Shown: positions 1,960 to 34,131 of the stretch, piece after piece | Numbering within the stretch: position 1 is the stretch's first letter | Layout: every line of letters begins with the position of its first letter | Virus record (IMG/VR): IMGVR_UViG_3300047557_001239 | Span: 1-39,799 of that record | Direction: 5' to 3' (one strand) | Source: a virus | DNA: 39,799 bases | The notes under the pieces: model-generated | Databases searched by the model: none | What the model saw: the letters and a program-made list of their open reading frames with translations, nothing else | Told to the model about the DNA's origin: nothing | Made by a program: the position numbers and the translations under genes

Positions 1960-4338
1960 TTAGCCTTTCGGTTTGAGTGTTTCTTTCAGTATTGCGGTTT
2001 GTGCTTTCTTGTCTTCGCCGCGTTCTTTTGCGGCCAGTCTCATAGCCTCGCGTTTGTTCTCGGCCATAATCCGCTCGCGCTCGATCTCTTGCTGTTGAGC
2101 CTTGAGCTGCAGATCGGCTTGATCCTTCTGGGCCTGCATCTGAAGTTTCTGAGCCTGAAGTTGGAGTTCCTGTTGCTGCATCTGGATAACAGGATCTTGT
2201 GCCTGAGCCTGAGCTTGTTGTTGGGCTGCTTCTGCCTGGTTCTTCTGGAGAAGCTGGGCCGAAGCTTGGGCCACGAGCTGAGACAGATTGACTTCAACAT
2301 CCTCTGGCAGAGGTTTGTCCGGAGGCGGTAGCGGAACGCCAAGCGTCATCTCAATATCGCGGCGATACTTGAAGCCAAGGTGTTCTGCGATGTGGGCCAT
2401 GAGTGAAGCCTGGATCTGTTGAGCCATCGGGTTCTGGCCAATCGCTCCCATGATCTTGGGATCCTGCATCATCGTCTGGTGAACCGCGATGTGTGCGTCG
2501 TGATCCTGGTAGATGAATGCCTTGAGAGGTTTGCCCTTCAGAGCATTCATGTTTTCTGAGACCGGATCTACAGGCTTTTGATCGTCGATGGTCGGTACGA
2601 GCTTGGCTGCATCTTTAATGCCAAGGACGTCAAGCATCTGGCGGTGTAAAGCAGGAAGATCATAAATCTGAGGCGCGGATTGAGCCAGTTGAATAACCGC
2701 CTGATACTGAACAACTCTTTGCGCCATAGTGGCGGCGTTTGGATCAGAGACTGGGATGACTTCAACAAGGTCGTAATCACTTTTCTTTGCGCGGGGCGGT
2801 GCGTTCTGCGGTTCGTAAGCATAAGCGTCCTCCGTATAGTCGCGAATGATGTTTTTTAGGAGCTTGAACTCCTGTTTCATCGCGTGGTGGACCCTCGCCT
2901 GCACGGCACTCATGGTCTTTAGCTGACGCTCAAGTAAAGCTAGCGTTGTTCCAACCGGAGCTTGTGCGCTCATGTCAGACACTTTCATGTCTGCAACTGA
3001 GGCAAGCCGGCGGGCTTCGTCGTTTACTTGATTAAGTAGTGCAAGAAGGGTTTGACTCGGCTCTTTATAGGGCAGAGTCATAATGTTGTCTTTAATTGCT
3101 CCGCCCGGAATGTCTACATCTCTAAATTCACCCGGAGCAATCGGTGTGTCGTCTCCCTTTACACGGAGTCCCCGGGCTTTAAGCCCTCCTGGAAGGTTAG
3201 CCAAGGATCCTGCGTCAATAAGTTGACGTATAAGCGTCGTGCCTCCGCGAGCATACCCACCGATAATATGAATGAGGCCAAGGTTGTAAAAGCCAAAGCC
3301 GGGAATATAGCCATAGTGGACAAAATGGGTCCGCTTAAGCTTAAGGGGGTCATTGGGATTCCAGTTTCTACGAATGGCGAGGACGGTTGAAGTCCCTTTA
3401 TCAATCGTAACGATGTACGGGAGTGCGATTCCATCTTTATCCTCGTATCCTGGCAGGTCAAGATCAGCTTGAATCTCAAGCAATGTGTACCTGTCATCTG
3501 AAGTTAGCGTAAAGCCTGCCTCTTCCGCCTTCTTCCTTTCAATGTCGGTCTGAATAAAGACCGGATCTCCTAGATCTACGTCGCGGTAAAAGCCAGCGAC
3601 TTGTAAACGCTTTAATTCGTTGCGCGTTTTACGCATTACGTGAGTAACACGTGGCGCTGTTTCAAGATTAGATGCGCCGTAAGGAACGATCACATCTTCT
3701 GCGGTTACAAATATCGCAACCTGACGTCCGAGACTCGGATCGTAATAAACCTTTTTAAATGCTGACCCCTGAAGACCTAGGGAGTAAAGAAGTCTTTCAT
3801 GTTCTGGGCGGTATTCAACCATTACTTCAGTCAGCTGGTAATTCATATCCTGCTGAACTCGCTCTGATGCCTCTTCTTTAAACTTGTTAGGCTGACCTAT
3901 GATCTTCGTCTTGACCGGTCCCTTGGCCGGGAAGGTCTCCATGATCGTCTCGGACTGGAACCTAATGGCTGCCTCAGAAAGCAGGGTGGAAAAAATCCCG
4001 CAGGCTCCGTTCCAGGGTTCGGTTCGTTCTTCGTATTTGATTCCAAGGACTTCGAGTCCTTTGACAAGCATGTCTGCCCAGTCTTTTCGGGAGTTTTCGT
4101 CATTCTCTACATCTGATGTAAGTTCAGATCCGAACTGGGTTAGCTCGGACTCACTCATAAATTCGGCTAAGTTGGCATCAAAGTCCGTCTCGTCGATCTC
4201 TTGGGGTTCTATCTCTACTTCCATGCCATCCATTTTTATAGACATGGATTCTGGATCTACAACCTCAATCTCGATAGCCTCGGTTGGTTCCTCTTCAATC
4301 CCGGCTGGGGCTTGGTATAGGGCTTTTTCAATCGCCAT
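1960..4338 (-). CDS. Portal protein
   Basis: 792 residues. An acidic N-terminus is followed by a portal-type core with RKDWADMLVKGLEVLGI and ERTEPWNGACGIFSTLL (about 85-115), and FHYGY/GFYNLGLIHIIG-like elements near 340. The last ~120 residues are a Gln/Ala-rich coiled coil (LQAQKLQMQAQKDQADL), resembling the long C-terminal barrel helix of P22-type portals. The dodecameric portal sits at one capsid vertex, nucleates assembly and is the channel for DNA entry and exit. The gene is 9 nt downstream of the large terminase and just before the head genes, the classic order. The length is in the range of podovirus portals with a barrel. Confidence 0.88.
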   Translation of the reverse strand: MAIEKALYQAPAGIEEEPTEAIEIEVVDPESMSIKMDGMEVEIEPQEIDETDFDANLAEFMSESELTQFGSELTSDVENDENSRKDWADMLVKGLEVLGIKYEERTEPWNGACGIFSTLLSEAAIRFQSETIMETFPAKGPVKTKIIGQPNKFKEEASERVQQDMNYQLTEVMVEYRPEHERLLYSLGLQGSAFKKVYYDPSLGRQVAIFVTAEDVIVPYGASNLETAPRVTHVMRKTRNELKRLQVAGFYRDVDLGDPVFIQTDIERKKAEEAGFTLTSDDRYTLLEIQADLDLPGYEDKDGIALPYIVTIDKGTSTVLAIRRNWNPNDPLKLKRTHFVHYGYIPGFGFYNLGLIHIIGGYARGGTTLIRQLIDAGSLANLPGGLKARGLRVKGDDTPIAPGEFRDVDIPGGAIKDNIMTLPYKEPSQTLLALLNQVNDEARRLASVADMKVSDMSAQAPVGTTLALLERQLKTMSAVQARVHHAMKQEFKLLKNIIRDYTEDAYAYEPQNAPPRAKKSDYDLVEVIPVSDPNAATMAQRVVQYQAVIQLAQSAPQIYDLPALHRQMLDVLGIKDAAKLVPTIDDQKPVDPVSENMNALKGKPLKAFIYQDHDAHIAVHQTMMQDPKIMGAIGQNPMAQQIQASLMAHIAEHLGFKYRRDIEMTLGVPLPPPDKPLPEDVEVNLSQLVAQASAQLLQKNQAEAAQQQAQAQAQDPVIQMQQQELQLQAQKLQMQAQKDQADLQLKAQQQEIERERIMAENKREAMRLAAKERGEDKKAQTAILKETLKPKG

Positions 4339-4347
4339 GTTTAGTCC

Positions 4348-5847
4348 TTAGTAATAAGCAGCCCGGCGCTGCTTGAAGTATTGAATGTCGTCCTCTTCGT
4401 CAAGAGTAGTGCGCACATAACCACCTTGCCTAAATCGCATTAAGGCAAGGGAGACCGAGTCCACATAGTCATCATGGTCCCCATTAGGGAAACTTGCAAC
4501 TTCTTCCACCACTTCCTCGGCCCAGTTAGTGTTTGGAACCCATATCCGGCTTGAAGCAAATAGATCAGATACAGCATTTAATCGCGTGATCTTATCGTTG
4601 CCTTTGGTTGGGGTAAACTCCTGCACGGGAACGCCCATAGATCTAAGCTCATAGATGAGGGGAGCGCCAGAGGCCTTCTTTTCTATGATGAGTCCGTCGG
4701 GGTTCCATTCCTTGTACTGTTCTAACACCCGTTTTTTCAATTCCGGGAACTCAAGCCGGTCCCGAAAGGCGTTTAACAGTATTAAATTTGCCTGTTCTTT
4801 GCCCGTATCGTCCGGGTGGTAGAAGACTCCCCAGGTAGTACAGGCCGAATAGTCGGCGCGGGTGTTCTTTTCAAACGCTGTATCCCAGGCTTGGATGATC
4901 ATATCGACCGGAGGCGGGGAATCGTTCTCCCAAATCTGCCACCACTCCCGTTTTACGATGGCTGAACCCTCTGAGGTAGGGTCTTGTTGGTACTGAGCCT
5001 GCCATTTTGGGTGCGGAAGCTCCTCTTTTAGGGCCGATAACTCACCTAAACTCCAAAATTCAGGCCAAAGTGGCTTTCCAGAGGGCAAAATTGCTGGAAA
5101 TTCAATGACTTCCCACTCATCTCCGCCCCGCTGAGCGCTGGCTTTAAGGACTTGGCCCGTTAAATCGCGCTTTCCCCACCGGGTCATCACGATAACAATG
5201 GATCCTCCCGGCTGAAGACGCTGCCGAGGTCCAGAGGAGTACCACTCGTAGACCTTATCAAAGACCCCCGGGTCTCCGGCGGCTAGGGCTGCTTCTTGTT
5301 CTGAGTGCGGGTCGTCAATAATAAGGAGGTCAGCTCCCTTACCAGTGACGGTACCGCCAACGCCAATAGCAAAATACTCACCATTAGCATTAGTAGACCA
5401 CCGCCCAGCAGCCTTAGAGTCGTGTCGCAGGGATACGTTCGGAAATACTTTTGCATAAGTCTCCCCATCTACTAAGTTACGGACCTTCCGGCCAAAGCCT
5501 ACCGCTAGTTCGGCCGTATTAGAGGTCTGGATAATCTTCTTCCCAGGATACTTCCCCAGGAACCAGGCCGGCAATAAGTAGGAGGCAAACTCCGACTTCG
5601 TGTGCCGGGGTGGCATATTGATAATAAGTCTCTTTAGCTTTCCGGCAGCTATGTCCTCAAACTTCTTAGCCATCACCGCATGATGGCGGCCGTGTATAAA
5701 GCCGGGCCACATAGACTTAACAAAACTCATAAAAGAGTTCTGAGACTTCTCCCTAGCTAAGGCGTCCTGGTACTGCTGCGCCATCAGGAGGATCTCGTCC
5801 CTCTGCGCATCCGGCAGATTGGAGATAAAGTCCAAAACCTTACTCAA
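4348..5847 (-). CDS. terL: Terminase large subunit (packaging ATPase and nuclease)
   Basis: 499 residues. The N-terminal ATPase domain shows a Walker A-like INMPPRHTKSE (76-86), Walker B LLIIDDPHS (174-182) and the coupling strand IVIVMTRWG (217-225). The C-terminal RNase H-fold nuclease begins at IIQAWDTAFEK (D322) and ends with a conserved acidic DDYVDS near residue 465. This motor cuts concatemers and pumps DNA through the portal. It overlaps the upstream LexA-type gene by 8 nt and is followed by the portal. Motif order and length are normal and I see no truncation. Confidence 0.96.
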   Translation of the reverse strand: MSKVLDFISNLPDAQRDEILLMAQQYQDALAREKSQNSFMSFVKSMWPGFIHGRHHAVMAKKFEDIAAGKLKRLIINMPPRHTKSEFASYLLPAWFLGKYPGKKIIQTSNTAELAVGFGRKVRNLVDGETYAKVFPNVSLRHDSKAAGRWSTNANGEYFAIGVGGTVTGKGADLLIIDDPHSEQEAALAAGDPGVFDKVYEWYSSGPRQRLQPGGSIVIVMTRWGKRDLTGQVLKASAQRGGDEWEVIEFPAILPSGKPLWPEFWSLGELSALKEELPHPKWQAQYQQDPTSEGSAIVKREWWQIWENDSPPPVDMIIQAWDTAFEKNTRADYSACTTWGVFYHPDDTGKEQANLILLNAFRDRLEFPELKKRVLEQYKEWNPDGLIIEKKASGAPLIYELRSMGVPVQEFTPTKGNDKITRLNAVSDLFASSRIWVPNTNWAEEVVEEVASFPNGDHDDYVDSVSLALMRFRQGGYVRTTLDEEDDIQYFKQRRAAYY

Positions 5848-19258: not shown

Positions 19259-19879
19259 CTAGTCCTGTGATAGCTCAAAGTTATTAACAACGAACCGGCC
19301 ATAGGTTGGACGAAAGTCCCCAATCCCAATCAGCCGACCGCTTGTGTCAATCACATCCCGCAGCAGCACCGGGTCAATGTACTCGGGCAGCAGAACCTGG
19401 AGACTGAAATCAGCAGTCCACCCCTGCTTCATAGCTGGACGGGTGCGGTTGATACCAGCTCGCTGAATAGTTACGCGACACGTATGTAGGTAGTCCCAGT
19501 TATCGACGCCCAGCGTGGACAGGTTGGTCAGCGGTACGATGCCGGCCTTAAAAAGATCCATAGCTGACTTACGTGGGCTGCGCGGGTCTTGCTTAAACTT
19601 GGCCGCATGAATGATCGCCTGGCGTAGATACTCGCCGGGTACGCATAGCTCACCATCACTGTTACGCCAGACATAAGACTCAATGTCATCGGTCTTCTTG
19701 GCTGCGCTGTTTTTGGATGCCTTGGACTTAGCCTCAACCGCCTCGCAGTTCCAGCGGTGAAACAACATGTCCGATGTTCCCTCAAGTCTTACGTGTACCG
19801 CATACGGAAGGCTTGCTTCGATTGCCTGCTTTGCGCCGTTTGTCTTTTCTGACACCACCTTTAAAGCTGTCTTGCCCAT
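19259..19879 (-). CDS. Conserved phage protein of unknown function
   Basis: 206 residues from ATG 19879, which has AAGGAGA 7 nt upstream; the frame extends 12 codons further but without a site. It contains LPYAVHVRLEGTSDMLFHRW, DDIESYVWRNSDGELCVPGE, AIIHAAKFKQDPRSPR and IGIGDFRPTYGRF near the end. The pattern (small-molecule-free, beta-rich, ending G(D)FRPxxGRF) belongs to a conserved early phage family whose role I do not know. It is the first gene after the pentamer array at 19929-20307, which forms its 5' leader, so it is the obvious target if the array acts on translation or read-through. Confidence 0.72.
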   Translation of the reverse strand: MGKTALKVVSEKTNGAKQAIEASLPYAVHVRLEGTSDMLFHRWNCEAVEAKSKASKNSAAKKTDDIESYVWRNSDGELCVPGEYLRQAIIHAAKFKQDPRSPRKSAMDLFKAGIVPLTNLSTLGVDNWDYLHTCRVTIQRAGINRTRPAMKQGWTADFSLQVLLPEYIDPVLLRDVIDTSGRLIGIGDFRPTYGRFVVNNFELSQD

Positions 19880-19956
19880 TTTTAATTCTCCTTGTTGAGT
19901 AAAAAACCACACCACACACTTCCCTACTTGACCGCGACCAGCCTTACCTCAAAGTC

Positions 19957-20036
19957 TCATTGGAAAAACCGTGCCATGCCGTACCCTGCCTAGCCCAACA
20001 TTTCCACAACAAGCCCAACCACAGCCTTTCCAATGA
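19957..20036. repeat. Inverted repeat unit 1 in the pentamer array
   Basis: TCATTGGAAA (19957-19966) and TTTCCAATGA (20027-20036), perfect 10-bp arms enclosing pentamer blocks. The left arm belongs to CAAAGTCTCATTGG..., repeated 140 nt later at 20090 with few changes. Confidence 0.75.
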
Positions 20037-20093
20037 AACCTCACCATACCGGGCCGAACCCCGCCTATCCCTACAGCACCTTACCGCTCCAAA

Positions 20094-20198
20094 GTTTTAT
20101 TGGAAAAACCAAACCTCACCCAACCTTTACCCACCTGACCGGACCGGACCTTACTTCGGCTCGCCGTGCCTCACCTTACTTAGTTTTTCCAATAAAAC
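20094..20198. repeat. Inverted repeat unit 2 in the pentamer array
   Basis: GTTTTATTGGAAAAAC (20094-20109) and GTTTTTCCAATAAAAC (20183-20198), a perfect 16-bp inverted repeat around 73 nt of pentamer blocks. ATTGGAAA arms alternate in orientation through the array, giving two tandem stem-closed units. Confidence 0.8.
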
Positions 20199-20312
20199 CT
20201 TGCCACACCAAACACGTGCCATACCATTCCCAGCCCGACCGAACCAGACCAAACCGGGTAAAAATCCATGCCATGCCCCAGCTCACCATGTCCGACCGGA
20301 CCATGCCGAGAC

Positions 20313-20540
20313 TTAGTCTTGCGTTAACTCTTTTATTCTGTTTTGCAGATGGTTGATATGAGCTGACTGCTGCTCAATCCTTTCTTGATACCTACGCATC
20401 TGCATTCCTACCTCTTCAATCTGATGCCCCAGCTTTATTGCAAACTCTCGGAAGTCTGCTGCATTTGATTCTGGATCTGCGCTGGGGGTATGCCCCCGTG
20501 CATACATATCCTCTGCAAGCTGAATCATGTCTCGGATCAT
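20313..20540 (-). CDS. Small coiled-coil protein
   Basis: 75 residues. The N-terminus (MIRDMIQLAEDMYARGHTP) is helical, followed by a loop, then a coiled coil from about residue 30 to the end (HQIEEVGMQMRRYQERIEQQ..). It overlaps the ribbon-helix-helix gene as ATGA. Its stop abuts the pentamer array (6 nt). No function is recognised; the coil may pair with the upstream regulator. Confidence 0.65.
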   Translation of the reverse strand: MIRDMIQLAEDMYARGHTPSADPESNAADFREFAIKLGHQIEEVGMQMRRYQERIEQQSAHINHLQNRIKELTQD

Positions 20541-20824
20541 CTTGTCCTCAGTAGTTCATTTATTTGATCTGACAATATCGCTCCGACATCCCGACCATGA
20601 ACTGCAACCATCTGAGCTTCTTTGCAGTCGTAAACAACCTTGGCAGCATCTCGGACTCCTTGGTTATATCCCGCAACAAACTGATCAGTGCTTCCGTCTA
20701 AAAGCATTGCAATAGCATCCCGCACAAGCGTCGATGCCTTGCGTTCTTTGGCCAGCTCCTTGAGCTTCAAGTGCTGATCCCGTGGCAAGTAAAACGAAAA
20801 CGGGACTAACTTACGCTCTTCCAT
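20537..20824 (-). CDS. Ribbon-helix-helix DNA-binding protein
   Basis: 95 residues. KLVPFSFYLPRDQHLKLKEL (5-24) then AKERKASTLVRDAIAMLLDG is the Arc/CopG/MetJ plan: a beta strand with alternating residues, helix, ST turn, helix. The C-terminal half (FVAGYNQGVRDAAKVVYDCK, GRDVGAILSDQINELL) may be a dimer or ligand region. Such proteins bind DNA as dimers on inverted repeats, so it is a candidate for operator type A or B. It overlaps the previous gene by 19 nt and the next by 4. Confidence 0.8.
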   Translation of the reverse strand: MEERKLVPFSFYLPRDQHLKLKELAKERKASTLVRDAIAMLLDGSTDQFVAGYNQGVRDAAKVVYDCKEAQMVAVHGRDVGAILSDQINELLRTR

Positions 20825-23871: not shown

Positions 23872-24219
23872 ATGATCCAGCTTGAGCTACCCTACCCGCC
23901 GACCATCAACCACTATTGGGGACAGTACGGCAACCGCCGTTTCATAGGGAAGAAAGGCAAGCAGTTCAGGATAGATGTGGCAGAAGCATGCCTTGAGGCT
24001 GGAATACAGACCCTAGAAGGCCGTCTTTCGGTACACGTAGCCCTCTGGCCCCCGGATAGGCGGGCAAGGGACGTAGACAATGTTTTAAAGCCTTTGCTTG
24101 ACGCTTGTGAGCATGCCGGCTGCTTTGTGAACGACAGCCAGATAGATGAGCTTCACATCATTCGGCAGGAGGTCCGCAAGGGCGGGGCCTGCACGATAGT
24201 CATCCTACCTATTTCCTGA
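23872..24219 (+). CDS. rusA: RusA-family Holliday-junction resolvase
   Basis: 115 residues from ATG 23872; an upstream in-frame start at 23797 would run through both operators and is rejected. LPYPPTINHYWG (6-17) is the N-terminal signature. RARDVDNVLKPLLDAC carries D67, D69 and K73, and VNDSQIDE carries D88: the acidic and Lys residues that match the E. coli RusA active site. It cuts four-way junctions, resolving branched DNA before packaging. It is the only rightward gene in this part, convergent with the ejection protein gene (15-nt overlap). Confidence 0.93.
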   Translation: MIQLELPYPPTINHYWGQYGNRRFIGKKGKQFRIDVAEACLEAGIQTLEGRLSVHVALWPPDRRARDVDNVLKPLLDACEHAGCFVNDSQIDELHIIRQEVRKGGACTIVILPIS

Positions 24220-27200
24220 CTCTTTGGCCTGACCAACCCGCTCATTGAACCGGGTCATGATGTCAGTGATCCGCTTGTCGATGGCCTTGATGTCCTCTTT
24301 GGGGGCGTCCTTCTTGATCATCTCAGACTTCCGCCTGCGCAAAGCTTGAACCGTGCGCTCAACATTGTTGGCTGCGCCATACAGTCTGGCCTCGGGGTTT
24401 TCCCTAATATATTCATCTACAGGTTCCCGATTCTTGCGGCGCCCCTTGATCTCATTCTCATGCTCATTGATGAGTTTGATGTTTTCGTAAAACTTAGCGC
24501 TTTGGGCGGCCTGGCTTTTAGTCTCGCCAACAAACCGACCAACCAGCGGGATCTTATAGGTGGGCAGCTCTTCCCCTGTAACAGCAGCTGCTGCTGTCTG
24601 CTGGGCTTTTATAGCCTCCCGCCCAATACCACCAAACGCTTGGCCGATTAGGTAATCAATCTGGTCCGGAGTAGGACTGAACTTACCGGGCCGGAATTCG
24701 GTTCCGCCGCTCGCATAGTTAAAGAATTCGGAAAGCTTCTTGCTAACCCAGCTTGCTGTGTCCTTGGCCCTGGTGTATCCAGGAGTTGGATCAAGACTGG
24801 AGATATCTTTCTTGGCAATTGTTTTCCCTGTCCAATCTTTGTTCTCAATCAAAGCTACCACTGGATCAAAAGGCGTTGGGGCAAAAGTTTGCCAAGACCA
24901 ACCGGCGTTACCCAGAGGGTTAAACATATCTAAAACTGCGCTAGTTATCTGAGCCACACGCTTTCCCGGATCTCTGAAATCATTCAATGCCCACTCGGTT
25001 GAAACCCTGGAAACAGTAGGAATGATGTTGAATCCAAGGGGCATGGGAATGGTGATGTATTTTCCATCTCCAGTTGGGATAACAATGTTTCGATCCTTGA
25101 TGAAATCGGGCGGCTCATCCTCATCAAACCCGGCAGCGTCCAGCAACATGGCCTGAGCAAATCCAAGAATCAAACCACCAGCGAGAATTTTTTTGCCGGC
25201 CGGCCCACGAAGGGTCTGGTACATCCTGGCGGTGCCTTGTACTGAAGCGTTAAAGAACGCATACAAAGCACCAACTTGCCGAGCTACTTGACCCTTGCGG
25301 TTAAAGTTAACCGTCAAGTTCTTTGCTACGGAAGCGGCCTGCTGCTTGCTTAATCCCTGATCCAGCGCTGCCTTGTAAGCAGCCAGGCGGACTGCATTCT
25401 CCATCGTCTCGTTATAATCAGACAGCCAATCAAAAATTACACGAGCAGACTTTTTGGCTTTGCCCTCAGAAAGTTTTTTTAGCTCACTTGTTAGTGCATC
25501 ACGACGCTCATCAGCTCGACTGAACTGATCACGGAATCCCGTTTGGCCACCTTCTTTTTGGAACTCATCCCACAAGCTAGACCACTTCCCAGATGGAGTG
25601 GCTTTCCCGTCCCGTCGCGCCCGCAGATCAGCGTAGATTCCGCGCAAGGCCGGCAACGTGTCAGCCATAACTTGCTTGGTCTTTCCTTTGATCGGAGTGT
25701 TTGTCAGATTAAGAGCTGCGCCTTGATAGTCACGTAAGAAGTTGATGGCACCAAAGATTGGGTTGTACTGCGTGTTAACCCTAGCAAAGTATCTGGTAAC
25801 CACACCCAAAAACTCTAACGCTTGGCTGAGCTGGTCGGCATCCAGATTCTTAAGTGCAGTCGCCATGCGAATTGCACGGGGATCTTTTGTGTTAAAGAAA
25901 ACAAACTTATCTTCGCCATTTACGCGAACAGATACAACATTCTCTGCGCCACGTAATGTCGGATTGATTCCATGAATAACCGAATTGGTCGTTGGATCAA
26001 CGTATGACCGAGTCGGCTCTTTCATAATGTTGGCCGCATCAGCCGGATTAATTCCCATCGACTGCAACTGTTGAGCCGTCTTGAGAGGATCTTTGATGGC
26101 TTTGGGGTCTACCGCAAACCAGAAGTCAGTGTTTGGGTGTTGGACAGCTAAGCCATAAATTGCCTGAGATACACGGTTTTTTTCCGAACGGACAATTGCC
26201 CGCTCTCTTTGCATAGCGATATTGGCAAGGATGTCTACTACCTGGCGACTAGAGCCAGCAGCCCTCTTGCTGGTAGGGCCACGAACACTGAAGCCCTGGC
26301 CAATACCGCGACCAATATTGCTAACCTCATAGTCCATCTCTTCGCGGGCAAGAGGTATGTAGTTCTTGTAGGAATTTTCCCAGGCCTGAATTGTTGCAGG
26401 ATCTTCAATACCGTTTTGAATCAGAGTCTGGCGTGTCTTGGCCGTGATGGCATCAACCTTCTTGGCTATTGACTCTAAGTCCTTGCGCTTTTGAGGAGGC
26501 AAAGCATCTAAATATTTATTAGCATCGTCAGTAAAAATCCCTGACCCGCCATCTGGCATAGCTGGATTTACTTTGGCGACCTGAATGTTCCGTTCTTCAG
26601 CATGGCGGTTGTGCAGATATTCTTCAACATCGGCAATCGTAAATTTTTTAGCATTAATCTCTTTAAGCAGCGGAGTAAGCTCTTTTTGTATAAAGTCATT
26701 CGTCTGCTTAGCTGTACGCCCGTGGTATAGCTCCTCTTGGAGATACGCATTCCAGCGATCCTGTAGCTTGCCTCTTGCCTCTTCAATGTTGGCGATAACC
26801 CGCTTGGTATCAACCATCTTGTCTTGCAGCCTGTAGATGACATCGTCGGTCTTCCTGTCATCTGGACGACCCCAACTCGGCTTGACTGGCTTCTGACCAA
26901 AGATATTCGTCCGAACATTTGGATAGATACCTGTGCCGGCTAGCATCTCTGTAGATACAAACTTGCCATCTGACTTAGACAGGCTGTCCAGCGCCCTGAT
27001 AATCGGGGCATCAGACTTCATTCCAAGAGCGCTCTTAAGCTTTTGTACCAGCTCTGATAGCCAGCGTTTCAAAGCTCCAAGCCTGTCTCCGCGAACGTCA
27101 TAACGTCCCTGCACAATCCCAGAGGCGTTAACCGCCCAAAACTCTGACGGATTTGCAAACTGGTAGTACTGATAATCAACCTTTCCGTCCTGGATCATTT

Positions 27201-30200
27201 TTGTAGCCAGATTAAACGGAGCTGCACTTCCAGTTTTATGATGCTCGTCCAACAGATCAAAGTAGGTGGTTAAATTTTCATCACCTTTTGCAGATTTTTT
27301 AGCTGCCCCATACTGAGCTGCCCATGACTTAACAATAGCGCTGCGTACCTTCTCCGGCATCATTCGCTCAAGATGGTGCAGGATTTCATGCACAGCCGTA
27401 TCGGTCTTTGTGGAGCCGACAATCAGCTTAACAATGCGCGGCGTTGGCATGTATTGGCCGCTTGTACCTGTCTCTTCAGAGTTGCGAATTGAAATACCCA
27501 GGTCTTGAACTAGTGCTGGGTTTTGTTTCATAAACCATTCGGTCAGCTCTACCGTTTCCTCAGTCAAGGCACCATTACGCAAACCGTTGCGTAGGCGCTC
27601 GATGATGAAATCCATACCACGGACACGGTCTCTGATCGGCTTGGATGCTTTAGCTGCAAGCGTAACTGCACGGGCTGCTTGTACGCCAGCGGCAAATTCA
27701 TTCGGTGTAATAACGCCCTTATCTAGGGATTTTGAAAGCCGATCAAACTCACGGGTGAATGATGGAGTAACTTCGTTTGCCTCCAGCATCGGGGCTGGAG
27801 TAGCTACCGTTACATCAAACAAGCTCTGTTGTACTGGAGGAGTAACAGGATTGGACTGTTGCTCCAGTTTGAATAGATCCCGCTCGTTGTCAGCAATCTT
27901 CTTGAGTTCTCTCTTTTCTAGCTCAGCAGCTTCTCTTTCCTGGCGGGCTACAGTTTCCTCAGCGGTCTCTGACTTAAGTTCTAGCTCTGGACGCTCAACT
28001 GCGGTTGCTTGCTCACGAAGTTTGTTGGCGTATGCAGTAGCCCCTTCTAGCGCTTTGTCGCCCTTGTATCGACGAATGCTGCCGTTTACGTATTGCTCAG
28101 CATCTGCGTCATACAGTCCTGCTCCATACCCATCAGACGTCTTAAATACATTTACCTTCATGCCGTCTGGAAGATCAGACGAAATAATATTTTTATCTTT
28201 CTTGCCGGATGGAACAACCTGTTTAAATTCAATCCCAGGTTTTGCCTTAAAGTATTGCTCAAACTCTTTAAACGATCTACCACTTAATACATCGTCTAAT
28301 GTGCCATAAGCTTCTTGCTCTTGATAAAGTTTTCCGGTGCTGTCTAATCCGCGAGCAATGATTGCGCCAGTAGGTGATTTGATTTCCTGCCGGGGGCCAA
28401 TGCCTTCCATAACATACTGTCGATACGAAAATCCGTTTGGCAACGCAGTCCAAGATACTTTGCGGTCATCATCGGTTTGAAATTGCTCTGGATTCTCCAG
28501 CATATCCCGGAGGCTGCGAACCGCCGCTACTTGCTCCGGCTCTCCCTCCGGAGTAATACGTTCTGTAATACCTCCAGTTGTGACGATTTCGGGAGCTGTT
28601 TCAGCAACTCTAGGGCCTTCTTCTGCTGCGATTTCGGCTGCAATTTCATTGGCTTTTTGTCTGATTTGTTCATCTGTTAACTCCCGTGCAAGGGCCTCTT
28701 CTATTTGTGCCAAGTCCATATTCAGCTTCTGCAATCTGATGTCTGTCTCAAATGTCAGATAGTTCTGATTTCGAATCTTGTCTTTGATGTACTCAACCGC
28801 TTCGGTTTCACGCCCAGGTGCCTTAAGTTCTGGATCAAGAAAGTCGTCTAGCTGGTTAGTGTTTGCTAACACATCAGCAATGTTCTCTCCTTCGCCACGC
28901 TTGGGCGACATACGGAATACCTTGGCAACGCCCGGCTCCGGGGAGATGTCAAATACTTCTGACTCACTAAGTCTGTTGCGCAACACGGTGGCCAGGCTTG
29001 GGCCTTTATCCCGCATGGCACGGCTAATATCTTTTTCTGCTGCCGCCTTCTCAGCTTTAAGTCCAGCAATTTCTTCCGGCTCTGGAGGCAGCTCCTCAGA
29101 AATGTATGGTCGAGTCTCGGTGGGGATTTCTGGCGGGGCTTCAAGTTCAGCTGCGGCTTCTGCCATCTGGCGCTGGGTTTCAGACAAACCGGGTACAGCC
29201 TCTGCCGCCTTGGGTTCTGGCATCAAGCCTAGCGCCTTGAGAGCCTCCTCTTCTGGTGCCATGCCCGGCTCAGTCGCCTCAATAGCCTGCTCTCTAGAAA
29301 GACGCTCCGGTGCAGACTCCACAGCCTGTTGCTTGAGATCTTCTTCTTTCTCTGGGGCCGGAGTTTCTTTACGACCGCTTAGAACTTCTCTAGTAGCCTG
29401 AACGCCACCGCCCAAGCCGCCACCAACGATGGCGCCTTCCAGCATCCGTTCGCCAAGTTCTTTTGGATCAACTCCTTTGATCGTGCCAGCGGTCTCACCC
29501 AGGTATGCGGCACCCTCTTCAACGGCCTCAGTTCCTCCCTGAACGCCTGTTTCTCTTGCTAATCTGCCAGTGCGACTTTGTGCCTCAGCGCCCTTGCCAA
29601 GACGTTTTGTAGCAAATCTTTCTAATGTTGCTTCTGTTATGGCCGCACCAGCTGCCGCTGTTACATCACCAACAGTAGCGTCATTTAGTGTCTTATTGTC
29701 ATTCTTAACCCGCTCATCCAGGATTTCTTTGGTTCTTGCACCGATGTACGGGATAAACGCATACACCGCTGCTGCCATGTCCGGGGTGGATGTAATAACA
29801 CGCTCAGCAATAAACGGAACCGCATTTAGTGGATTGTCAGCTAAATCGCTTAGCTTGGTGCTGGGGCTGTAACCAATATTCTTTTCAACGTCCCTTAGAG
29901 ACCCAGCCAAGTTAAACAATGGTTGAAGTTGTTTTTCACTTTTAATCTGTTCGGGTGGAATGTTACTTAACGGAATCTTAGATTCCATAAAGTCACCAGC
30001 CCGTTCTGCCACCTCGGCAACTGCCTCTACCCCAGATGCAGTAAGACCAGCAGCCCTGCCCAATGCTCCCATCAAGGGATTTTTTGTCCCGCCTGGTGGG
30101 GCGCCTAGCCCAGGCATTTGTTGTACAACAGCCTGGTAAGCCTGAGCGTCATCTAACTCTACTGGCGACTCTACGCGAAAGGTTCCCTGTCCCGGGATGT

Positions 30201-30219
30201 CAATCCGGTAAACCGGCAT
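24205..30219 (-). CDS. Giant internal virion (ejection) protein with metallopeptidase and LPD38-like domains
   Basis: 2,004 residues. The N-terminal ~35 residues (VYRIDIPGQGTFRVESPVEL) resemble the start of other giant phage proteins. A low-complexity Glu/Ala-rich region follows (to ~330). An HExxH zinc-peptidase motif TAVHEILHHLE has H944, E945 and H948. A region about 1560-1760 has FDWLSDYNETMENAVRLAAY, VNFNRKGQVARQVGALYAFF and a hydrophobic ILAGGLILGFAQAMLL, like the large polyvalent protein LPD38 domain. Such proteins are packed in the capsid and ejected with the DNA, sometimes digesting the cell wall or host proteins. The peptidase target is unknown. Confidence 0.8.
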   Translation of the reverse strand: MPVYRIDIPGQGTFRVESPVELDDAQAYQAVVQQMPGLGAPPGGTKNPLMGALGRAAGLTASGVEAVAEVAERAGDFMESKIPLSNIPPEQIKSEKQLQPLFNLAGSLRDVEKNIGYSPSTKLSDLADNPLNAVPFIAERVITSTPDMAAAVYAFIPYIGARTKEILDERVKNDNKTLNDATVGDVTAAAGAAITEATLERFATKRLGKGAEAQSRTGRLARETGVQGGTEAVEEGAAYLGETAGTIKGVDPKELGERMLEGAIVGGGLGGGVQATREVLSGRKETPAPEKEEDLKQQAVESAPERLSREQAIEATEPGMAPEEEALKALGLMPEPKAAEAVPGLSETQRQMAEAAAELEAPPEIPTETRPYISEELPPEPEEIAGLKAEKAAAEKDISRAMRDKGPSLATVLRNRLSESEVFDISPEPGVAKVFRMSPKRGEGENIADVLANTNQLDDFLDPELKAPGRETEAVEYIKDKIRNQNYLTFETDIRLQKLNMDLAQIEEALARELTDEQIRQKANEIAAEIAAEEGPRVAETAPEIVTTGGITERITPEGEPEQVAAVRSLRDMLENPEQFQTDDDRKVSWTALPNGFSYRQYVMEGIGPRQEIKSPTGAIIARGLDSTGKLYQEQEAYGTLDDVLSGRSFKEFEQYFKAKPGIEFKQVVPSGKKDKNIISSDLPDGMKVNVFKTSDGYGAGLYDADAEQYVNGSIRRYKGDKALEGATAYANKLREQATAVERPELELKSETAEETVARQEREAAELEKRELKKIADNERDLFKLEQQSNPVTPPVQQSLFDVTVATPAPMLEANEVTPSFTREFDRLSKSLDKGVITPNEFAAGVQAARAVTLAAKASKPIRDRVRGMDFIIERLRNGLRNGALTEETVELTEWFMKQNPALVQDLGISIRNSEETGTSGQYMPTPRIVKLIVGSTKTDTAVHEILHHLERMMPEKVRSAIVKSWAAQYGAAKKSAKGDENLTTYFDLLDEHHKTGSAAPFNLATKMIQDGKVDYQYYQFANPSEFWAVNASGIVQGRYDVRGDRLGALKRWLSELVQKLKSALGMKSDAPIIRALDSLSKSDGKFVSTEMLAGTGIYPNVRTNIFGQKPVKPSWGRPDDRKTDDVIYRLQDKMVDTKRVIANIEEARGKLQDRWNAYLQEELYHGRTAKQTNDFIQKELTPLLKEINAKKFTIADVEEYLHNRHAEERNIQVAKVNPAMPDGGSGIFTDDANKYLDALPPQKRKDLESIAKKVDAITAKTRQTLIQNGIEDPATIQAWENSYKNYIPLAREEMDYEVSNIGRGIGQGFSVRGPTSKRAAGSSRQVVDILANIAMQRERAIVRSEKNRVSQAIYGLAVQHPNTDFWFAVDPKAIKDPLKTAQQLQSMGINPADAANIMKEPTRSYVDPTTNSVIHGINPTLRGAENVVSVRVNGEDKFVFFNTKDPRAIRMATALKNLDADQLSQALEFLGVVTRYFARVNTQYNPIFGAINFLRDYQGAALNLTNTPIKGKTKQVMADTLPALRGIYADLRARRDGKATPSGKWSSLWDEFQKEGGQTGFRDQFSRADERRDALTSELKKLSEGKAKKSARVIFDWLSDYNETMENAVRLAAYKAALDQGLSKQQAASVAKNLTVNFNRKGQVARQVGALYAFFNASVQGTARMYQTLRGPAGKKILAGGLILGFAQAMLLDAAGFDEDEPPDFIKDRNIVIPTGDGKYITIPMPLGFNIIPTVSRVSTEWALNDFRDPGKRVAQITSAVLDMFNPLGNAGWSWQTFAPTPFDPVVALIENKDWTGKTIAKKDISSLDPTPGYTRAKDTASWVSKKLSEFFNYASGGTEFRPGKFSPTPDQIDYLIGQAFGGIGREAIKAQQTAAAAVTGEELPTYKIPLVGRFVGETKSQAAQSAKFYENIKLINEHENEIKGRRKNREPVDEYIRENPEARLYGAANNVERTVQALRRRKSEMIKKDAPKEDIKAIDKRITDIMTRFNERVGQAKESGNR

Positions 30220-32772: not shown

Positions 32773-34131
32773 TTACGCCGGGGTGTATTTCCGGGGGTTA
32801 ATCTGTTTGCCCTGCTTGGTTGTTCCAGTCCGAGCCTTACGAATCTTTGCCATCATGTCATACAACACATCTGCCCCGGCATCGGAGTTACCGTTGCCAA
32901 GGTGCGATACCACATCTGCCGGGATCACAAACTCGCCATGACTGAGCCGGGCTGGCTGTTTGCCATCAATATCGGTCTTAATTTTATCGGCCATTCCATC
33001 TGTGCCACCACGCAGATACCGGGCTGGGCGTCCACCTGCCGACAGTCCCATTAGTCCACCTTGAGCTGCGCGTTGGAAGCTGACCCCACCTGTCAGAGAC
33101 GGGATACCTGCGCCACCGGGACGACGACCTCCTGCTGTTGGAGCTGTCGGAGTTCCGCGAGTTGCGGTGTATTTAGGAATGCCGCCCTGATAACCAACCG
33201 GCCCTTTGGGTGCAGAGCCTTTGCTGAGCAATCCGAGCAGACCGCCAAGCAAAGCCATTAACATGGCGTTGTCTTTTGATATACCGGTTGTAGTAGTAGT
33301 TTTTGACTTAACGCATTGTTTACTTACTGGATCATAGGTATATCCCGTTGGACATTGTTTTGTGTCAGTTGTTGTAGCTTTCTTACACTGCTTAGTAGCG
33401 GCGTCATATACATAGCCTTCAGGACACTGAGTGCCATCGGGCTTTGTTCTGTCTTCATCCGTTCCTTTTGTCGCTGTGTCTTCGGTGCGACTACCTTGTC
33501 TGCCGTCAACCTCAAATGGATCAGTCCCAGTTGCGCCTTGATATACCTCGTCTGATACATCACCAAAGCCTTCAATACCTGGAATCCCCATAGAGCCTTG
33601 GTAAACTTCATCAGAAACATCTCCAAATCCTTCGATGCCGGGTATCCCCATTGATCCTTGGTATACCTCATCGGAAATATCACCAAACCCCTCGATGCCC
33701 GGAATGCCCATAGATCCCTGATAGACCGTATCCGAGATGTCACCAAAACCTTCTAGCCCAGGAATGCCCATCGACCCCTGATACACCTCGTCTGAAATAT
33801 CGCCGAATCCATAGTTACCGGGCTGAGTTAAATCAACTAACGCTACATCTCCACCAGTAATTTCTGGGCCGATGTTAATGTCTGTAATATTGCCTAAATC
33901 TAAATTTCCAAGATCTACACCACCAAGATCTACACCACCAAGATCTAACCCACCAATATCAAAGTTAAGACCACCTAGATCTAAGCTACCAAGCCCTAAA
34001 TCTCCAAGATTTATTCCGCCTAAATCAAATCCAAAATTTGGCAGGCTGCCAAGGTCAAGATCAAATCCGCCGTAATAGTCGTCGAACGCTAGATCTTCAA
34101 AACCACCTAAATCAAATCCGTAGTCGCCCAT
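32773..34131 (-). CDS. Repeat-rich tail fibre-like protein
   Basis: 452 residues. Residues ~35-81 are pentapeptide-type repeats (IDLGG/VDLGN style), which would form a right-handed beta helix. Residues 108-207 are five 20-residue repeats of GFGDISDEVYQGSMGIPGIE type, the last one divergent. Two Cys modules follow (C-P-x-G-Y-x-Y-D...K-Q-C), then a Gly/Ala-rich stretch and a C-terminus with SHGEFVIPADVVSHLGNG and ADVLYDMMAKIRKAR, an end I recall from podovirus tail proteins. A tail fibre or adhesin is inferred. It is acidic and low in basic residues up to ~210. Confidence 0.72.
   Translation of the reverse strand: MGDYGFDLGGFEDLAFDDYYGGFDLDLGSLPNFGFDLGGINLGDLGLGSLDLGGLNFDIGGLDLGGVDLGGVDLGNLDLGNITDINIGPEITGGDVALVDLTQPGNYGFGDISDEVYQGSMGIPGLEGFGDISDTVYQGSMGIPGIEGFGDISDEVYQGSMGIPGIEGFGDVSDEVYQGSMGIPGIEGFGDVSDEVYQGATGTDPFEVDGRQGSRTEDTATKGTDEDRTKPDGTQCPEGYVYDAATKQCKKATTTDTKQCPTGYTYDPVSKQCVKSKTTTTTGISKDNAMLMALLGGLLGLLSKGSAPKGPVGYQGGIPKYTATRGTPTAPTAGGRRPGGAGIPSLTGGVSFQRAAQGGLMGLSAGGRPARYLRGGTDGMADKIKTDIDGKQPARLSHGEFVIPADVVSHLGNGNSDAGADVLYDMMAKIRKARTGTTKQGKQINPRKYTPA
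33511..33810. repeat. Five 60-bp coding tandem repeats
   Basis: Each 60-bp unit encodes a 20-residue repeat of the tail protein. The units keep the protein sequence but differ at many third positions, so they are held by selection on the protein rather than by recent duplication. Confidence 0.8.

Follow-up and report, generated by a model that had tools for sequence, protein, structure and literature searches.

A five-base repeat array beside a RAMP gene in an environmental phage probably represents a divergent VIPR locus

A run of five-base units lies between two genes in the window, by which we mean the whole 39,799-nt stretch analyzed (IMG/VR record IMGVR_UViG_3300047557_001239, positions 1 to 39,799). 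What is this array, and which protein, if any, reads it?

A five-base array fills an intergenic gap

We measured identity at a lag of five bases and compared it with 2000 dinucleotide shuffles. At 19929-20307 the lag-5 identity is 0.433, against 0.284 ± 0.023 in shuffled sequence (z 6.4), and lies above every shuffle (maximum 0.361). A single phase modulo 5 holds 39 of the 69 CC dinucleotides at 19929-20320 (shuffles 17.4 ± 1.6, maximum 24); the in-phase count of the runner-up 300-bp stretch elsewhere in the window is 15. The original prediction had proposed a five-base beat and suggested the comparison with shuffles, and both measures bear it out. It had also placed the unit GGYNN on the leftward RNA, which is supported by the units read there and by the strand bias among relatives described below.

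The units are readable over 19904-20307 and occupy the full gap from the stop codon of a 75-aa ORF (20313) to the Shine-Dalgarno sequence of a 206-aa gene. The register slips between segments, for instance by an extra base at 20210, so the array consists of six phased segments (9, 12, 13, 11, 10 and 9 units, in order 1 to 6). Of the near-strict register predicted for 19929-20307, the period therefore stands, the extent has to be widened and the single ladder gives way to the six segments. The inverted element ATTGGAAAAAC / GTTTTTCCAAT separates several of these. An Rfam search of the window gave no match.

The adjoining gene encodes a RAMP protein

Units of this kind have been described in a preprint on VIPR, the Viral Interference Programmable Repeat (PMC13142463; bioRxiv 2026.04.26.720920, v2 June 2026). 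VIPR combines a phage RAMP protein, Vipr, with vrRNAs of 9-16 GGY/NN units and a structured tail; successive NN pairs read double-stranded DNA, skipping one base in between, and so silence competing phages (PMC13142463). The experiments reported for SUSP1 and relatives comprise sequencing of small RNAs and tests of co-purification, binding and repression, and VIPR, with its gapped code, was proposed as the ancestor of CRISPR RAMPs (PMC13142463). A literature search for a second paper on VIPR found none. The earlier statement that no described phage element resembles the array was true until this preprint appeared in April 2026.

The genes considered beside the array are:

19259..19879, minus strand: vipr gene, 206-aa RAMP (Cas7-like) predicted RNA-binding protein, family phrog_4652
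20537..20824, minus strand: RHH-like 95-aa protein, upstream

The family profile (A1) of the 206-aa protein matches PDB 36pp_D, 'SUSP1 Vipr protein', with an E value of 5e-39. All 88 aligned Vipr homologues match phrog_4652, a family annotated as of unknown function. Foldseek matches the AlphaFold2 model (pLDDT 91.7) best to CRISPR RAMPs, namely gRAMP and chains of Csm3/Cas7, at TM-scores near 0.5 and E values of roughly 1e-7 to 1e-5; Pfam and PADLOC searches with the protein gave no match. On the basis of homology and the predicted fold, we identify the 206-aa protein as Vipr, a single-domain RAMP homologue. The predicted partner had been sought among the products of 20313-20824, and the RAMP encoded by the next gene takes that place instead.

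The RHH-like protein matches RHH_3 below the cutoff for that family (E 0.0024) and occurs in only one of 35 vipr-clade loci; it is a weak candidate for an accessory (vap) gene. A search for a conserved accessory gene across the 35 loci found none. Among the neighbours scanned we found no CRISPR repeat/spacer array and no further cas-like genes, the RAMP fold being the only shared CRISPR feature. The Erf annealing protein was considered as a reader of the five-base units and rejected, as within the clade it adjoins vipr only in the window phage and L002, its nearest relative. In Phage DSL-LC04 (L277, OR003939.1; 4970-5587, minus strand) a Vipr homologue with 70% identity is annotated as 'helix-turn-helix transcriptional regulator', likely a misannotation, and GGYNN units lie in the unannotated gap adjoining it.

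Putative guides and hairpins

Read on the leftward RNA, the six segments and two hairpins are:

20263..20307, minus strand: putative vrRNA segment 1, 9 units, NN = AT CC CG AT GA GG AT AT TT (sequence reading)
20195..20255, minus strand: putative vrRNA segment 2, 9 units (TT CT TC CG TG AT AT AC TT), the extra base at 20210, then 3 units (GT AA TT) (sequence reading)
20111..20175, minus strand: putative vrRNA segment 3, 13 units, NN = GA AC GA GA AA CC CC CA GG AA TG GA TT, in the loop of hairpin 1
20036..20090, minus strand: putative vrRNA segment 4, 11 units, NN = GC AA GC AG TA GG TC CC AT GA TT
19971..20020, minus strand: putative vrRNA segment 5, 10 units, NN = TG TT GT AA TG TA AG AC AT AC, in the loop of hairpin 2
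19904..19948, minus strand: putative vrRNA segment 6, 9 units, NN = AA TG GC CA AG AG GT GT TT (sequence reading)
20086..20206, minus strand: hairpin 1, arms 20180-20202 and 20090-20112 (ATTGGAAAAAC / GTTTTTCCAAT)
19946..20043, minus strand: hairpin 2, where the inverted element recurs (CATTGGAAAG / TTTTTCCAATG)

The leftward RNA is more stable than its shuffles (z -4.6) owing to the two long hairpins, whose loops each enclose one guide. The arms of hairpin 1 are 23 nt long and 91% complementary (RNA fold -39.7 kcal/mol, z -4.25), and hairpin 2 folds at -39.5 kcal/mol (z -6.0). L002 retains one of the two, with its pairing intact. The hairpins may set guide processing. What lies between the segments is paired inverted elements and hairpins, not a single invariant 3' tail; clear hairpin tails occur at L025 and L009. 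A near-constant hairpin element of ~50 nt splits the arrays of L025 (4443-5023), L026 (3081-3641) and L011 (2911-3192) into guides of 60-95 nt, and these repeated elements (z -6.65 in L025) are clear vrRNA tails.

Array and gene are linked across phages

Relatives were collected by two routes. Searching viral contigs with the 206-aa protein alone gave 35 loci, and in nearly all of them GGYNN arrays adjoin vipr on the upstream side, the downstream side or both. The period and GGY are kept across these relatives and NN differs; both the arrays in related phages and the conservation of period rather than sequence had been proposed as checks of the prediction. When the motif was left out of the test, almost all 35 loci had one or both flanks in which lag 5 or 10 was best.

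By the second route, a pattern of nine GGY triplets with two free bases between them matched at least 120 stretches, and among the array matches listed 110 contigs were diverse rather than microsatellite. A Vipr homologue lies within 1 kb in 87 of these 110 contigs (median distance 69 bp) but in only 1 of the 178 viral contigs used as controls (Fisher 1e-50), and that single positive control locus also has weak arrays alongside. Arrays near vipr lie on the same strand in 350 cases and on the opposite strand in one. They are found only downstream of vipr at 56 loci, only upstream at 29 and on both sides at 20. Erf, SSB, exonuclease and other genes surrounding this module are shared almost only with L002, so vipr and the array behave as a cassette. 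As the window locus and the ~120 contigs collected show, environmental phages commonly carry the pair. The array predicts the gene and the gene predicts the array, and both travel jointly between unrelated gene neighbourhoods.

No Vipr was detected in the available stretch of 23 of the 110 diverse-array loci (L044, L057, L065, L118, L127, L149 and 17 others), where the contigs may be truncated, their Viprs may have diverged further, or the arrays may act in trans. L029 has an unusual arrangement, with extra GGYNN arrays at 2950-3034 (plus strand) and 5598-5662 (minus strand), about 3 kb from vipr and one of them on the opposite strand. Searched genome-wide, the array pattern matched mostly true microsatellites; diverse arrays were found in about a dozen cases, four loci having Vipr. 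Bacterial genome contigs with diverse arrays include L176 (Aureimonas), L202 (Selenomonadales), L230 (Acidimicrobiia), L185, L196, L198 and L224, with Vipr present in L176, L185, L196 and L202. They are probably prophages or proviruses.

Which positions of the unit carry information

Over 1342 units the base frequencies are G 0.97, G 0.84 and Y 0.93 at positions 1-3, values partly built in by the array detector, and near even at NN. Substitutions were counted only in truly homologous array pairs; pooling pairs at 80% identity was rejected because shared GGY alone yields about 60% identity. Between the window and L002, units carry 8 substitutions, of which Y has 5, N has 2 and G has 1 (p 0.01 under an even spread), with GG and NN mostly conserved and Y variable. 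In other close pairs, Y accounts for 2 of 4 and 6 of 12 substitutions. Such a concentration at Y is what one would expect were the guide held in NN and Y free to vary. The two N bases had been predicted to be spacers; by the published VIPR rule they hold the guide information (PMC13142463).

The locus as a probable member of VIPR

A GGYNN array with an adjoining RAMP gene places the region within the VIPR system, and we estimate a probability of about 95% that it is the VIPR locus of an environmental phage, its function being assigned by analogy to the preprint relatives. Observed here are the array, the RAMP protein with its homology to a solved Vipr, same-strand linkage in >100 phage contigs, a free Y against a conserved GG, and hairpin potential. 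At the sequence level every VIPR feature is matched apart from two, an evident invariant tail and a vap gene. The kind of system was already known from the preprint (PMC13142463); the window holds a divergent, previously undescribed member.

By analogy with those relatives (PMC13142463), vrRNA processing, RNP assembly, DNA pairing and silencing would proceed as follows. A leftward transcript of 19904-20307 would yield about six vrRNAs, each of 9-13 GGYNN units with structured tails on either side. Vipr (19259-19879) would oligomerise on them, one RAMP subunit gripping the GGY of each pentamer, and the exposed NN pairs would follow the 1-nt skip rule in reading DNA, so that the target is gapped (NNxNNx...). 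Target binding would then repress genes of competing phages. The multimeric reader of a triplet plus two bases that had been predicted would thus survive as a multimer with one subunit per unit, and its TRAP-like ring would be replaced by a Cas7-like RAMP. Since guides are readable from the sequence, it becomes possible to test which uncultured phages fight which others.

The window shares the Vipr RAMP family with the systems of Escherichia phage SUSP1 and a Pseudomonas fulva prophage (PMC13142463; PDB 36pp). Like them it is phage-borne and has GGY/NN guides (9-16 units there, 9-13 here) on the same strand as vipr, in a long intergenic space beside it. Unlike them, its guides run head to tail in one upstream block and there is no clear vap gene. 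Its Vipr is only distantly like that of SUSP1 (single-sequence match to 36pp, E 3.8e-6), and where the SUSP1 clade has a compact pseudoknot tail, the tails here are long inverted repeats shared by adjacent guides, with two guides within hairpins. Class 1 CRISPR RAMPs (Csm3/Cas7, gRAMP) share the predicted fold and, as we infer for Vipr, oligomerisation on RNA at fixed spacing. However, Class 1 systems have a 6-nt period, a contiguous spacer, CRISPR repeats and adaptation genes, whereas the period here is 5 nt and none of the others was seen.

The most serious alternative, though still improbable, is a decayed or inactive VIPR locus, in which protein and array, though homologous, have lost their function. 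Off-consensus units (AGTAA, TGTAG, TGTTG) and the lack of a target in the viral-contig collection for most decoded guides are in its favour, but the vipr ORF is intact, the hairpins keep their pairing, and the comparison with L002 shows little change in GG or NN but variation at Y. A regulatory leader resembling the targets of TRAP (trp RNA-binding attenuation protein) would also combine a fixed triplet with a period of five and, in the window, a leader position; a phage ring protein would bind GGY and attenuate the operon, with NN as free spacers devoid of information. This is very unlikely, since arrays are as often downstream of vipr as upstream, TRAP is an 11-mer with a fold unrelated to Vipr and is not linked to RAMP genes, the partner here has a RAMP fold and a homologue in the solved Vipr, and close relatives differ at Y rather than NN, the opposite of what free spacers would give.

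We give hardly any weight to two readings in which no RAMP takes part. GG does recur every 5 nt on the RNA strand, as it might in an element that works purely through its structure, a two-tetrad G-quadruplex or an R-loop. Quadruplexes, however, require no fixed Y in third place and no loop of exactly 3 nt, would not tolerate the GCY, GAY and GTY units that are kept in register, and leave the RAMP linkage without explanation. The plus strand is C-rich and has open frames, which could suggest a DNA iteron array, a Rho entry site or an ORF (118 aa, 19960-20316, plus strand). Frames stay open because NNRCC is poor in stops, the segments shift frame through indels, a 5-bp beat alternates between the faces of the duplex, and array orientation follows vipr in 350 of 351 cases. 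The original prediction had offered the quadruplex, Rho-site and iteron readings, and all three leave the fixed Y, the strand bias and the RAMP linkage unexplained.

Candidate targets of the guides

Under the VIPR reading, guides were decoded by the published 1-nt-skip rule, and scans of viral contigs covered guides 2, 3, 4 and 5. For guides 2, 3 (both halves) and 4 no convincing target was found in the viral contigs, extension being at chance level and frames inconsistent. Within 2.3 Mb of collected loci, skips of 0-3 gave no enrichment signal against shuffled guides. For guide 5, all 20 bases of its ten NN pairs match in 9 contigs in a scan of all viral contigs. The nine matches share a single homologous site, within the C-terminal portion of the T4-like large terminase, with no other site in the viral collection. 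They span the ten units between the tails, and flanking tail units match poorly.

From 16-base patterns, which mostly have 3-9 matches, we estimate that about 0.02 such families would arise by chance per guide; because several guides were tried, the match is only suggestive. The T4-like large-terminase gene is therefore a suggestive but unproven target of guide 5. The base skipped in this gene is codon position 2, as against the wobble position favoured in the preprint (PMC13142463). A tentative reading, to which we give rather less than even odds, is that guide 5 is a functional weapon against T4-like phages that share its waters, and that the locus belongs to a VIPR subtype in which adjacent guides have complementary tails that pair into long hairpins, with guides carried in the loops.

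Other features of the window

In-frame tandem repeats of 60 bp (33535-33801) and 15 bp (33908-33960) lie within a 452-aa ORF (32773-34131, minus strand), which encodes a repetitive protein. The minus strand at 24205-30219 holds a 2004-aa ORF, very large for the size of the window.
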